A stretch of DNA of 64,000 nucleotides. Origin: Rheinheimera texasensis DSM 17496 (GTDB lineage: Bacteria > Pseudomonadota > Gammaproteobacteria > Enterobacterales > Alteromonadaceae). The position numbers were made by a program, and so were the translations under genes. Shown one piece after another: positions 47,250-52,982 of the stretch (position 1 is the first letter of the stretch; every line of letters starts with the position of its first letter). The stretch lies in NCBI RefSeq assembly GCF_000711985.1, contig NZ_KL544005.1, positions 1,067,970 through 1,131,969 of the forward strand, in the 5' to 3' direction. Below the pieces are notes generated by a model, which saw only the letters and a list, made by a program, of their open reading frames with translations, had not been told where the DNA came from and did no database searches.

Positions 47250-49643
47250 TCAAAGCGGTAATAACACCCGCAGCCGATAGCTCCGCCCGCTGTAGACCTC
47301 GGGCAACAAACCACCAGCCAGTTGTTGGTTGTCCAGATAAACTTCTGGCGCCACGATACCGGCCTGACGGCTGTAACTGCATTCAATCAGTGCACCACGG
47401 AACTGCCGCGTCACGGCTGCTTCCGGCCATTGGGCCGGCAGCTGTGGCTGGATCCGCAGCCCCGCGCCTTCACCTTTCAGACCAAACAAATGTTCAATCA
47501 GGCAACGATATACCCAATGCACAGTGCCGGTATTAAACAGCTGACTGGAGCGGCCTGCCGTGCGCGGATACTGGCTGTAAGCGCCACGATAATAGTTCGG
47601 TATAAACACCGGTAACTGGCCGCGTTGACGCTGATCGGCTTCATCGTCCGATGGCAACATCTGGCGCAGTGTGTGAAAAGCGCGATCGGCATCGCCGATT
47701 TGATACAAGGCATAGAGATAAAAGGCCGCCGCATGGTTATACACAGAGCCATTTTCAGCCGAACCGGGGAATTTTTGCGTGACCCGGCCAACATCGTCAC
47801 GCATCGCGGTATAAGCCGGTGCCAGCATTTGCACGCCATAAGGCGTTTGCAGCTGTGCATCCACCGCCTGTAATAACGCTTGTTGCTGCGCCGGGCTCGC
47901 CGCGCCGCTTAACAGCGCCCAGCTTTGTGGGTTGAGATAAATCCGCCCTTCAGGGTCTTTGCTGATACCAAACACCACATCATCGTCGGTGATGCCACGG
48001 CCATACCACTGACCGTCCCACAGATATTGATTCACCGCCTGATTAAAGGCTGCGGCTTTGGCCCGGTAGTCGTCTGCCTGCGCCGTCTCATTCTGGGTTG
48101 GGCCCTGGGTTGCAATAATTTCCGCCCAGGTATTCAGCGCATAAGCGGCGGCGAGACTGAGCCAGCCCGACACACCACGGCCTTTGTAGCCGACCATATT
48201 CATCGGGTCGCACCAGTCGCCTTGCTCGATATAACTTAAGCCCCGGTGGTCTTTTTTCTGCCAGAGCCAGGCCATAGCGCGATGCAGATGTTCGCGTACT
48301 GTGGTCGCGCCGGCGTCGGCTTCTTTGTAGCCGACTTGTTCGTCCAGCACAGACCAGTCGTTGGTTTCATCCAGATAAGCGCGCAGGAATAACGGCAGCC
48401 AGACACATTGGTCGGTATGCGGCACCTGATTGATGTATTTCAGCTGCGCGTCCGGATGCAGCAAAATCCCATCCGGCATTTCGCCGCTCTGATGCTGCTG
48501 CGACAGCGCCGTCAACAGCGCCTGCCGCGCCGTCTGCGGCGCCAGATAAGCCATGCCCATATTGTCCTGCAGATAGTTGCGCGTCTGCGGATCTGTCGTC
48601 AGCCGGTTCACCTCGCCGTGGTAATACACCTGACGCGGCAGCCACTGATTAACAAAATTATCCAGGCCCGCATCCGGTGTGCGGATTTGAATGGCGGGTG
48701 TGATAGCGTCCATATGCGCCTGACTTTGAACAATAGCTGCCGCAAAACCGTCAATCTGCGTTGAGCCAAAATAACGCTGCCGGATGGCGGCAATTTCGGC
48801 CAGATCTTTGGCCGGGCCAAACACAAAGCGGAATAACTCATTGGCGCCGGCAGCCAGCACCACATCGTACTGCAGTGCACAAGCCGGTGTTTCATAATCG
48901 GCGTTGCCGTTTGCCAGCCGTTCGGCGCTGATACCAGCAGGTGCAGCCAGGCCGCCTTCACCTTCAAACTGCTGTTGATTGGCTTCCCACGCCAGCGCCG
49001 CGCGTTCTGCCAGCAAAAAGGTCTGATCTTTAAAGTCTTTTTGTTTGAAATAATCCGGATATTTCTGGTACGGCGTCACGCTGCTGCACACCACCGCCTG
49101 TAAATCCGCTTCATAACGGCCGCTCTGATTCATCCAGGACATATAGCCAACCGGAAAATACGGGTACAGACTGAGCCGGCGCGTGGCAGTACCTAAATTT
49201 CGCACCCGCAGCTGCCACAGCTCCAGCGGCGCATCCGGTGCCAGGCTCAGCCGCCATTCCAGCCGTAAATCATCAGTGAGCTCGAGCTGCCAGCAGATGT
49301 CAGCACTGCCGGCGGAAAACACAAACTTTGCCGGGGCACGGCGTACCGGTTCATACGGCACCGACCACAATTCGCCGCTGTCCTGATCTTTGACATAAAC
49401 AAAGCGGCCCGGATGATGGGCGTAATACGGCTGCTCCGGCTGCATAAAAGTTTTGGCTTCCAGATTGGGCGCATGGGCGTATTTGGCCGGTTCCGGCTGC
49501 ATAAACTGGGCAGTGGCATAACCGCGGCAGTTCAGCTGGATCATCATGGTCTGATTCCATAAAAATGCGGCGGCCTGCGGCATGGCGGTGGCACTGAACA
49601 ATTGATAACGCTTCCCTGTAGCATCCGGATTCATCAAAGGCAT
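47250..49643 (-). CDS. GH94 phosphorylase, probable cellobionic acid phosphorylase
   Basis: 797 residues, one GH94 unit of beta-sandwich, linker helices and (alpha/alpha)6 barrel. [19 protein letters not shown] holds the catalytic Asp479. In cellobiose phosphorylases this motif reads GDWNDG; the CDPMNMVG form is, as I recall, the one seen in cellobionic acid phosphorylases. [15 protein letters not shown] and a late [11 protein letters not shown] complete the barrel. Cellobionate plus phosphate would give glucose 1-phosphate and gluconate. The operon encodes a gluconokinase, which fits gluconate as product. Start overlaps the transporter stop (TGATG). Cellobiose or chitobiose phosphorolysis is the alternative. 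Confidence 0.8.
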
Positions 49644-51085
49644 CAGGTTTTACTCCCGGAAATATCAGTACTGGAAACGTCTTGCTCAGCAGCTACACGC
49701 CGCGCGGCCAGCTCTTGTTGCAGGGCATGGACCTGGGCTTCAGACAACGGATAACACCACATCACCGCCGCCGCCAGTAACGCGACAATGCCGGGGATCA
49801 CCGACATCAGCCACAAAATACCTTGTTGCGAACCGGCGTTTTGTTCCGCATTGGCGACATAACCCAGCAGTGCCAGCACCCAGCCGATGGTGGCAGAAGC
49901 CAGCGCCCCACCGAGTTTTTGCGAAAAAGTCGCCGCCGAAAATGTCATGGCGGTGGCCCGCCGGCCGGTGCGCCATTCGTTGTAATCCGCGCTGTCGGCA
50001 TACATCGAAAATGCCAGCGGCGACTTGGGCCCCAGCACAAAACCAATCGCCAGATTCAGCGCAAATACCAGTGTGATGTTGTCCGGCGGCACGAAATACA
50101 GCGCCAGCGACATCACCCCAGCCAGGCTCATCAACAACATCATCAAGGTTTTCTTCGGCAGAAAACGCGTCATCAGCGGGGTCGATGCAGCGCCAAGCGC
50201 CAGTGCCAGCATATAACTCGACAAAAACTCACCGACCAGCTGTGGCTGCTGCAGATAATATTTGAAGTAATACACAGCGCTGCTGGCACGCAACGTGATG
50301 GTGATCATGATGACCAGCGCCAGGCAAAACAGCACCAGCCATGGTTTGTTGCCGGCCAAATCGCGGATGTCCTGCCACACCGGTGCCGGCACAGTACTGA
50401 CCGGCTGAATACGTTCGCGCGTGCTGGCAAAAGTGCAGAGAAACAACAACGCCGCCGCCAGACCAAACAGCCCCATCGTCAGCTGCCAGCCCAGTACGTC
50501 GTCGCCCTGCCCCAGCAGTGGCACCAGTTTAGGTGTCAGATAAGTGACTAAAATGCCGCCGGTAAAACCGCCGATAAAGCGGAAGCTGACCAATGTGGTG
50601 CGGTCCTGACTGTTGGCAGTGATGACGCCGGAGAGCGCTGAATACGGAATATTAATGCCGGTATAAATCAGCATCAGCAGGCTGTAAGTGCCATAAGCCC
50701 AATATAATTTGCCGTCGGCATCGAGGTCGGGCGTGGTGTAAGTCAGCACACCGGCGCCCGCCAGCGGTAACGCCAGCCACAGCAGATATGGCCGGAATTT
50801 GCCAAAACGCGAGCGGGTGCGGTCGGCAATCGCCCCCATCATCGGGTCGGTAAAGGCGTCAATAATTTTGGTGATCAGCATCATAGTGCCGGCAGCGGCA
50901 GCGGAAATACCAAACACATCGGTATAAAAAATCAGTAAAAAGGCCGAGATATTGGCCCAGTAGAAGTTAAAGCCGATATCGCCGACGCCGTACCCGACTT
51001 TCTCGCCAAGCCCAAGCCGCTGCTGCGGGCTAGTCGCCTGTGGTCCTTCACTTACGCTGGTGCTGCTGATGGTCGTGTTTGTCAT
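49643..51085 (-). CDS. GPH family sugar symporter, predicted aldobionate importer
   Basis: 480 residues with twelve hydrophobic segments. It begins after an extended polar N-terminus with [19 protein letters not shown] and has [22 protein letters not shown], the hallmark loop of glycoside-pentoside-hexuronide symporters. It lies between gluconokinase and phosphorylase genes on the same strand, so it probably imports the disaccharide acid that the phosphorylase splits. A 14-base operator-like word lies 46-59 bases before its ATG, inside the gluconokinase 3' end. Confidence 0.85.
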
Positions 51086-51113
51086 GCTGCTAAGCCTGTA
51101 TCATCCGGCACGG

Positions 51114-51746
51114 TTAATTCGCCGGTTTTGTGTTAGCGCTATCAGCGGTTCGCTGCAGTGCCTGAAATATGCGTTTAACTTGTTCCGGCAACGCCAACCG
51201 CAGGTCCAGCCACAACACGTCCGGTTCCAGTACCGGCACCTGCATCGTCGCGAGCTGACTGTGCAGCATAGATTCCGGCATAAAATGCGCGGTGCGGGCG
51301 CGTAACCGTGCTGCCAGCACGTCAGCCGGCCCGTGCAGGTAGACAAATAATGGCGCAGCAGCAGCGGCACGGATCTGCGCCCGTTGCTGCTGAATCAGAC
51401 CGGAGTAACTCAACACAGTCGGCAGCCCGCTGGCCTGTTGTTGCTGCAGCGCCTGACATAACAATCCGACCCAGTGCTGGCGCAGTTCTGCGGTTAACGG
51501 CTGGCCAGATGCCATCATTTGTTTGGCAGTAGCAGAATGAAAATCGTCGCCTTCCAGATAAGTCCAGCCCAGCGCGTCCGCACAATGCCGCGCCAGCGTG
51601 GATTTGCCGCTGCCGGCCACCCCCATCAGAATTAACGTCTGCGGCTTTTGTCCAGCGACATCCTGGGCCGCTGCCGGGCCCGGGCCTGCTATCTTTGTAG
51701 GTGTGCTTAATGCTGATGGGCCGTCAGCTGCGGTATCACGCGGCAT
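51114..51746 (-). CDS. gntK: Gluconokinase
   Basis: 210 residues with LILMGVAGSGKSTLARHCADAL (P-loop; only short parts conserved: GVAGSGKST), YLEGDDFHSATAKQMMASG and PTVLSYSGL-type features of thermoresistant gluconokinases (usual YLxGDxxHPxxNxxKMxxGxPL). The variant HSATAKQM replaces the common HPxANxxKM. It phosphorylates gluconate to 6-phosphogluconate with ATP. About 35 N-terminal residues (Pro/Ala-rich) precede the core and may not be structured. First gene of the minus-strand aldobionate operon, divergent from the LacI regulator. Confidence 0.88.
   Translation of the reverse strand: MPRDTAADGPSALSTPTKIAGPGPAAAQDVAGQKPQTLILMGVAGSGKSTLARHCADALGWTYLEGDDFHSATAKQMMASGQPLTAELRQHWVGLLCQALQQQQASGLPTVLSYSGLIQQQRAQIRAAAAAPLFVYLHGPADVLAARLRARTAHFMPESMLHSQLATMQVPVLEPDVLWLDLRLALPEQVKRIFQALQRTADSANTKPAN
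51131..51144. promoter_or_regulatory. Operator-like 14-mer before the GPH transporter
   Basis: TGTTAGCGCTATCA contains the palindrome TAGCGCTA typical of LacI-family operators. It lies within the last codons of gntK, 46-59 bases upstream of the transporter ATG. The same 14-mer recurs at 52001-52014 and, with one change, at 51840-51853. Confidence 0.6.
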
Positions 51747-51835
51747 CTGCCTGTCCTTCTTTTGCTGCTATCCAGTGCTAAGATCCGGGAATGATGAAAT
51801 CGCTTACAACAATGCCGATACAGCTTAATTCAGAC

Positions 51836-51857
51836 AAAATGTTAGCGCAATCATTTT
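51836..51857. promoter_or_regulatory. LacI-type operator between gntK and the regulator gene
   Basis: AAAATG-TTA-GCGC-AAT-CATTTT: outer arms and the GCGC centre are perfectly symmetric. It contains TGTTAGCGCAATCA (51840-51853), 13 of 14 bases identical to the sites at 51131 and 52001. It is centrally placed in the divergent promoter region. Confidence 0.7.
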
Positions 51858-51956
51858 GACCACAAGACTGATTTTCCGTTATGGTGAGCCAATTATTGAA
51901 TGCTGTCGCAGCCTCCTGCAGCAGCATTCGCAGCAAAAATCGCAGGACGTTCGCTG

Positions 51957-52982
51957 ATGAATCGTAAACCCAATTTAAAAGATGTGGCTAAACTGGCCGG
52001 TGTTAGCGCTATCACTGTGTCGCGGGTGCTGACCACGCCGGAGAAAGTGTCAGACAAACTACGGCAAAAAATTGAACAGGCCATTCACGAACTGGGCTAT
52101 ATCCGCAACCACGCCGCCAGTGCGCTGGCATCCAACCGATCCGGGGTGTTGGCGGTGATCATCCCGTCCTTGTCGAATATTGTATTTAACGAAGTGCTGC
52201 AAGGCATTTACAGCGCAGTGAAACCACACCAACTGCAGGTCATTTTGGGCGATTGCCATTATTCGCCACTGGAAGAAGAAAAACTGATCGCCACTTTATT
52301 AAGTCAGGCACCGGAAGGGGTGATCCTGACCGGCACCGACCAGACCGATTACGCCCGAAAATTGCTGCAAAACGCCGGTATTCCGGTAGTGCAGCTGATG
52401 GAACTAACAGACCAACCCATTGATATCAATATCGGTTTTTCCCATCTGGATGCCGGCATGGCGATGACCCAACATTTGCTGGCACGCGGATATCGCCGGA
52501 TTGGTTTTCTCGGCGCCAGGATGGACCAGCGCACACAACAACGCCTGGCCGGCTTCAAGCGCGCGATAGAAGACTGGAACCTGACACAGGCGCGGGAGTC
52601 TCAGGCCTTGTGCCAGCAGTTTGTCGTCACCACCGGCCAGTCGTCGTCGATTAAACTCGGCGGCCAGCTATTGCAGGCGGTGATGGCCGAATCGCAGGGC
52701 CATTGCGACGCCGTCTTCTGCTGTAACGACGACCTGGCGCTCGGCGCTTTATTTGAAGCACGCAAAATGAACCTGCGGGTGCCCGCCGACCTTGCCATCG
52801 CCGGCTTTAACGACCTCGAAGCCTCAGCACTGGTCGAACCCGGCATCACCAGCGTCGCCGCGCCGCGTTTTGCCATGGGCAAACAGGCGGTGGAACTGCT
52901 GATGCAAAAAGCCAGCGGCAATCAAACAGAATTCCCGCCTATTGACGTGGGTTACAGCATTATGGTGCGCGGCTCGACCTGA
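51957..52982 (+). CDS. LacI family repressor of the aldobionate/gluconate genes
   Basis: 341 residues from an ATG with AGGA about 10 bases upstream. The N-terminal LacI helix-turn-helix (NLKDVAKLAGVSAITVSRVL) and hinge are followed by a periplasmic-binding-like core with VLAVIIPSLSN, RGYRRIGFLGARMDQRT and AVFCCNDDLALGAL. The sequence is similar in style to gluconate repressor GntR of enterobacteria. Gluconate or a disaccharide acid is a likely inducer. It is divergent from gntK and has an operator-like 14-mer inside its own helix-turn-helix codons (52001-52014). Confidence 0.9.
   Translation: MNRKPNLKDVAKLAGVSAITVSRVLTTPEKVSDKLRQKIEQAIHELGYIRNHAASALASNRSGVLAVIIPSLSNIVFNEVLQGIYSAVKPHQLQVILGDCHYSPLEEEKLIATLLSQAPEGVILTGTDQTDYARKLLQNAGIPVVQLMELTDQPIDINIGFSHLDAGMAMTQHLLARGYRRIGFLGARMDQRTQQRLAGFKRAIEDWNLTQARESQALCQQFVVTTGQSSSIKLGGQLLQAVMAESQGHCDAVFCCNDDLALGALFEARKMNLRVPADLAIAGFNDLEASALVEPGITSVAAPRFAMGKQAVELLMQKASGNQTEFPPIDVGYSIMVRGST
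52001..52014. promoter_or_regulatory. Intragenic copy of the operator-like 14-mer
   Basis: TGTTAGCGCTATCA lies in codons for GVSAIT of the repressor's helix-turn-helix. It is identical to the 51131-51144 site. Protein constraint could explain part of it, but the match to a non-coding-type operator 870 bases away is exact. It could act as an auxiliary or roadblock operator. Confidence 0.45.

Follow-up and report, generated by a model that had tools for sequence, protein, structure and literature searches.

A repeated 14-base word as the predicted operator core of GntR in a cellobionate-type operon of Rheinheimera texasensis

In a 64,000-nucleotide stretch of the Rheinheimera texasensis DSM 17496 genome (hereafter, the window), a 14-base word that resembles a LacI-family operator occurs three times around a divergent gntK-gntR pair. 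Which of these copies are operators of the neighboring repressor, and which simply reflect the coding sequence that contains them? We favor, with a probability of about 75%, the reading that the word is the core of the GntR operator, with the copy in the divergent gap as the primary site, the copy at the end of gntK as a weaker secondary site, and the copy in the helix-turn-helix codons as a by-product of the protein sequence. The reading is based on sequence, protein families, conservation and co-occurrence, from which we infer binding, the effector and what the secondary site does.

The operon and the three copies of the word

The locus is a Rheinheimera-type operon in which gntK and the genes for a GPH transporter and a GH94 phosphorylase are divergent from the gene for a LacI-type GntR. 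Its features, in window coordinates, are as follows.

47250..49643, minus strand: GH94 phosphorylase, predicted cellobionate phosphorylase type (Pfam GH94; match to PDB 4zle)
49643..51085, minus strand: GPH-type sugar:cation symporter (TIGR00792, 386.6 bits, cut-off 231; Pfam MFS_2)
51114..51746, minus strand: gntK, gluconokinase (TIGR01313, 124.6 bits, cut-off 113.75)
51131..51144, no strand assigned: gntK-end copy, probable secondary operator (conservation in one genus relative, G018; counterparts in other Rheinheimera)
51840..51853, no strand assigned: predicted primary GntR operator (site kept in 13 of 13 relatives; alignment; flanked score)
51856..51885, plus strand: promoter-like site of the repressor gene, TTGACC-18-TATGGT (consensus scan; alignment of relatives)
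51957..52982, plus strand: GntR, LacI-family gluconate repressor (ORF open from 51900; start ATG at 51957 by comparison with relatives)
52001..52014, no strand assigned: operator-like word in the recognition-helix codons, GVSAIT (codons drift, peptide constant; A/T flanks absent)

The repressor carries the LacI helix-turn-helix and Peripla_BP domains of Pfam and passes the NCBIfam equivalog model for GntR (NF052440) with 407.3 bits (cut-off 400). Membership in this family goes with a gluconokinase neighbor and an operator in the shared region, both of which are present here. The GH94 protein matches PDB 4zle with 1129.8 bits over residues 9-796; the second-best PDB sequence scores 203. The PDB title of 4zle is 'Putative b-glycan phosphorylase'; we take it to be the cellobionate phosphorylase of the Saccharophagus type. 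With 4zle as its closest match over near full length, the GH94 product is predicted to be of the cellobionate phosphorylase type, and we infer that the symporter is likely the cellobionate importer. Conversion of cellobionate to glucose 1-phosphate and gluconate, followed by the action of gluconokinase, would fit control by a gluconate repressor. In a public scan, named records among the closest phosphorylases (best 80 of 360 loci) are mostly from Rheinheimera. The 5′ part of the gntK ORF (window 51640-51746) encodes about 35 N-terminal residues that are unmatched in most relatives, and the listed gntK start is therefore probably too early.

An earlier note on this DNA had placed the three words before the transporter inside gntK, in the divergent gap, and in the helix-turn-helix codons of the repressor. 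Letters, positions and locations all prove correct. TGTTAGCGCTATCA is found, identically, at 51131-51144 and 52001-52014, and TGTTAGCGCAATCA at 51840-51853. The first copy falls within the final 31 bases of the gluconokinase ORF, with the transporter ATG 46 bp further on; the second sits in the gap between gntK and gntR; and the third covers repressor codons 16 to 19 together with the adjoining base on either side, as numbered from the conserved start ATG at 51957. The centers of the first two copies are 709 bp apart, and those of the last two, 161 bp. A genome-wide scan, which the same note had proposed, returns these three as the sole exact matches to TGTTAGCGCWATCA in 4,586,440 bases (12 contigs). 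Seven more sites match with one mismatch; the reversed-pattern control gives five within one mismatch. Dinucleotide shuffling of the window yields no match in 100 shuffles.

The divergent gap and the company of GntR

Among 22 genomes of the genus, 13 beyond the window's own encode a GntR orthologue (77-86% identity). A match to the motif, TGDTWGCGCWAHCA, is found at the corresponding place in all 13 of these loci, at 1418-1440 with GntR turned forward. With its flanks, the gap copy forms a 22-base imperfect palindrome, AAAATGTTAGCGCAATCATTTT (51836-51857), and an alignment of the 14 gaps reveals a conserved block, CAGCTTAA-n-CAG-n-AAATG(W)TAGCGCAA(Y)CATTTTG, amid otherwise variable sequence. 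The interpretation of the gap copy as a conserved GntR operator, embedded in a longer A/T-flanked palindrome, is well supported by these comparisons. The TTGACC hexamer of the promoter-like site begins 3 bases past the operator; TTTTGAC and the region of the downstream hexamer are largely retained across the alignment, and the consensus scan match itself is at chance number. A further candidate in the gap, TGAAATCGCTTACA (51795; three mismatches), is not kept in the 14-gap alignment and was rejected as a fourth site.

Could the word be unrelated to the repressor, and reflect codon bias, a repeat element or the site of another regulator? Two of its three copies do lie in coding sequence. But the motif follows GntR. 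In a wider sample of phosphorylase loci (best 80 of 360), 28 of the 29 with GntR contain the motif, and none of the 51 without GntR does; 7 of the 28 (L078-L084) are repeats, from contigs already represented among the genus members, and L117 (21.5% match) is placed among the loci without GntR. The lone GntR locus that lacks the motif is L148, where a contig end truncates GntR. No match to the reversed pattern occurs in the 1,247,079 bases of these loci. Moreover, the operator core AGCGC(T/A)ATC resembles, by eye, the footprinted Pseudomonas GntR sites given in the available text of PMC12195362. We regard an unrelated word as very improbable.

Several individual loci bear on the association. 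The sole motif match in each of five Duganella/Pseudoduganella loci is the exact window word, TGTTAGCGCTATCA, which lies before gntK in four (overlapping the beginning of the gntK match in L135) and before the transporter in one. L090 and L092 contain neither GntR nor motif. Against the association, L025 encodes a GntR orthologue (69% identity) and an adjoining convergent TonB-receptor gene, with no gntK or motif in 4 kb. In L027 and L030, words of the form TGTTACCG, which we presume to be the E. coli type, adjoin GntR-like genes that are more distant.

Similar sites are also seen at other genes. Paired motif sites precede a TonB-dependent receptor gene adjoining gntR in L078 (737/892), L079 (502/657), L083 (730/885) and L085 (1076/1185), and likewise in L086-L089 and L091. 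The spacing within pairs is 155 bp or about 104-110 bp, and the receptor gene was checked in L078 and L085. This arrangement suggests that, in relatives, the regulon also includes an outer-membrane TonB-dependent receptor. Sites of the TGTTAGCGCAACCA type recur in other genomes of the genus. In one genome (G016, L058), an SMP-30/gluconolactonase-like gene (1548-2555, listed start GTG) has the motif 47 bases upstream of its start, at 1501-1514. For the gluconolactonase homologue of R. texasensis itself (L158, 59%), no site with up to two mismatches to the near-palindromic pattern is found in 3,939 bases of the scanned strand. The one extra motif match in this genome (G000 C4:922860; L005, 1501-1514) falls in the VSATT codons of a TonB-receptor gene, close to the N-terminus and in what reads by eye as a signal peptide. 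As a GntR target it was set aside as probably due to chance; the reversed-pattern control gives three places in the same genome.

The two coding copies

To compare predicted site strength, a score matrix was built from 40 distinct sites of relatives, found by pattern in 82 loci; the core is fixed by the pattern and has no independent weight. With flanks, the gap copy scores 33.3, above 36 of the 40 sites, and each coding copy scores 12.6, below all 40. The next best position in the window scores 3.7. Scored on their cores alone, the three copies are equal (22.3-22.4), so that the difference lies wholly in the A/T flanks, which are absent from both coding copies. Both are predicted to be weaker sites than the gap copy.

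Is the gap copy, then, the only one that matters, with both coding copies accidents of coding sequence? It is the sole copy kept throughout the genus, and the coding copies lack the outer flanks. In addition, fewer than 1% of LacI-family sites are in coding regions, according to the available text of Ravcheev et al. (PMC4052901). The copy at the end of gntK is indeed missing from 12 of the 13 genus relatives. However, the remaining one, G018, has TGATTGCGCTAACA at the corresponding place on the gntK strand, in the same frame as TGATAGCGCTAACA in the window. The site is identical at 13 of 14 positions, within flanks that are only 52% identical (67/130), and the peptides that it encodes, D-C-A-N in G018 and D-S-A-N in the window, represent the sole likeness between the gntK protein tails. 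A noncoding site is also seen at the same place in other species: TGATTGCGCTATCA lies between the gntK stop and the transporter in all five of L085-L089 (R. lutimaris, Rheinheimera sp. EpRS3, R. hassiensis, R. pacifica and R. oceanensis), and a variant, TGGTAGCGATATCA, in R. aquimaris (L091). The site kept in G018 and the intergenic counterparts in six Rheinheimera loci suggest that a secondary operator before the transporter recurs, if patchily. An operator role for the gap copy alone thus seems unlikely, though worth bearing in mind, and the gntK-end copy is probably a secondary operator before the transporter. A consensus scan for sigma-70-like promoters on the gntK strand, from 49500 to 52200, found none. 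The gntK genes of L085 and L012 each contain a single TTCACA-type match, about as many as chance would give.

The copy in the repressor gene behaves differently. Its codons, GGT GTT AGC GCT ATC ACT, encode GVSAIT of the recognition helix. The peptide GVSAITVSR is invariant in the genus, while the codons vary: the word is found at this place in 0 of 13 relatives (2 to 4 mismatches), all 13 of which have GTC where the operator requires GTT. The same holds for the wider loci, where the helix was located in 23 of the 29 with GntR (L133, L135, L138, L148, L154 and L156 being left out; 7 of the 23 repeat genus genomes). None of the 23 matches (1 to 4 mismatches), and the nearest sequence, in L150, deviates at the central CG. 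Nor does the motif occur inside the repressor gene in any of the 29 GntR loci (from the best 80 of 360). The earlier note had itself named loss of the coding copies at synonymous positions as grounds for refutation, and the claim that this copy is an operator is not supported by the comparison with any of the 13 orthologues.

How surprising, then, is the third copy? With GVSAIT fixed and codon use taken from 33 long ORFs in the window, the exact word has a probability of about 0.0013, and the motif one of 0.0025. The earlier description of the recurrence as most unlikely by chance needs a caveat for this protein-constrained copy, whose odds, though small, are far from those of a raw 14-mer. 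Any sequence that encodes GVSAIT is already close to the operator, and this accounts for the resemblance. We conclude that the copy is probably a coincidence of the peptide and the codons of this lineage, not kept by selection, though perhaps weakly bound. As the codon-use chance is just 0.0025, a lineage-specific gain may be possible. In that case, an operator would have arisen 161 bp from the gap site, where the repressor would bind its own recognition-helix codons and damp its own synthesis by roadblock; we consider this doubtful. Of the earlier proposal that the word is the operator of the LacI-type repressor, then, the part concerning the gap copy holds well and that concerning the gntK-end copy reasonably so, but the part concerning the helix codons is not supported.

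A model for regulation and its known relatives

In the model that we favor, a GntR dimer would occupy the gap operator at 51840 when gluconate or 6-phosphogluconate is absent. By analogy, this operator would lie between and overlap two divergent promoters and block both, so that the dimer would repress gntK, the transporter and the phosphorylase as well as gntR itself. Import and phosphorolysis of cellobionate, or entry of gluconate, would provide the acid that frees the repressor. The copy at 51131, as a weaker secondary operator, would likely tighten repression of the transporter and phosphorylase. It may do so by hindering elongation, by acting on a local start, or by contacting the gap site.

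A stronger version, close to that of the earlier note, has all three operators at work, bridged by the repressor in a loop (709 and 161 bp) that gives control of transporter and phosphorylase separately from gntK. Identical 14-mers within a small region would suit such a loop, as would the recurrence of a secondary site ahead of the transporter (G018 and six wider loci) and the paired operators before the TonB receptor in relatives (155 or about 104-110 bp apart). On the other hand, the helix copy is found in none of the 13 genus orthologues, both coding copies have weak flanks, and the operator spacing is inconstant (709, 647, 595 and 600 bp). The C-terminal tail of LacI-type proteins has a role in tetramerization; the GntR profile ends at the last residue of the protein (333/333), with no sign of such an added tail. 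Since the profile ends with the protein, the spacing varies between lineages and no internal promoter was found, looping is not favored, and we judge it improbable.

Taken together, this is an ordinary GntR operon, under a known kind of gluconate-sensing repressor and with a probable secondary operator that is patchily distributed. It offers a testable set of operators for an operon for cellobionate, an oxidized cellulose product, under a gluconate repressor in Rheinheimera and relatives. It also offers a clean case in which conserved recognition-helix codons mimic the protein's own operator without being conserved as one, and a warning that coding-strand repeats should not be called operators before synonymous positions are checked. 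Our literature searches turned up no report of a bacterial cellobionate operon controlled by GntR, and nothing on Rheinheimera with gluconate and GntR; the string 'cellobion' does not occur in the main text of PMC4052901.

Several known systems bear comparison. The GH94 protein is like the Saccharophagus-type phosphorylase (4zle) over nearly its whole length. The repressor resembles Pseudomonas GntR both in family (the name of NF052440 points to P. aeruginosa) and in its divergent gluconokinase gene, an arrangement described for P. aeruginosa PAO1 (PMC5902321). The available portions of the Pseudomonas papers report that GntR represses its own gene and gluconate genes (PMC12195362, PMC5902321), that the P. 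aeruginosa protein binds ...TAGCGCT and is released by gluconate and 6-phosphogluconate (PMC5902321), and that footprinted sites in P. plecoglossicida JUIM01 have AGCGCTATCT and AGCGCTGTCT cores (PMC12195362). The outer bases are TG...CA here, whereas they are AG...CT in the Pseudomonas sites given there. The operon here also differs in having a GPH transporter and GH94 phosphorylase in place of gntP, and the probable secondary site at the gntK end is a feature of this Rheinheimera locus. The GntR regulons of gamma-Proteobacteria, as described in the accessible text of Ravcheev et al. 2014 (PMC4052901), share with this one an even palindrome with central CG, a local sugar-acid regulon and, commonly, several sites per operon. 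Finally, intragenic auxiliary operators have been shown experimentally for LacI in lacZ and PurR in purB (cited in PMC4052901, in the text available). Like these, the gntK-end site lies inside a coding region of the regulated operon; unlike them, it is predicted, occupies the extreme 3′ end of gntK, and is missing from most of the genus.
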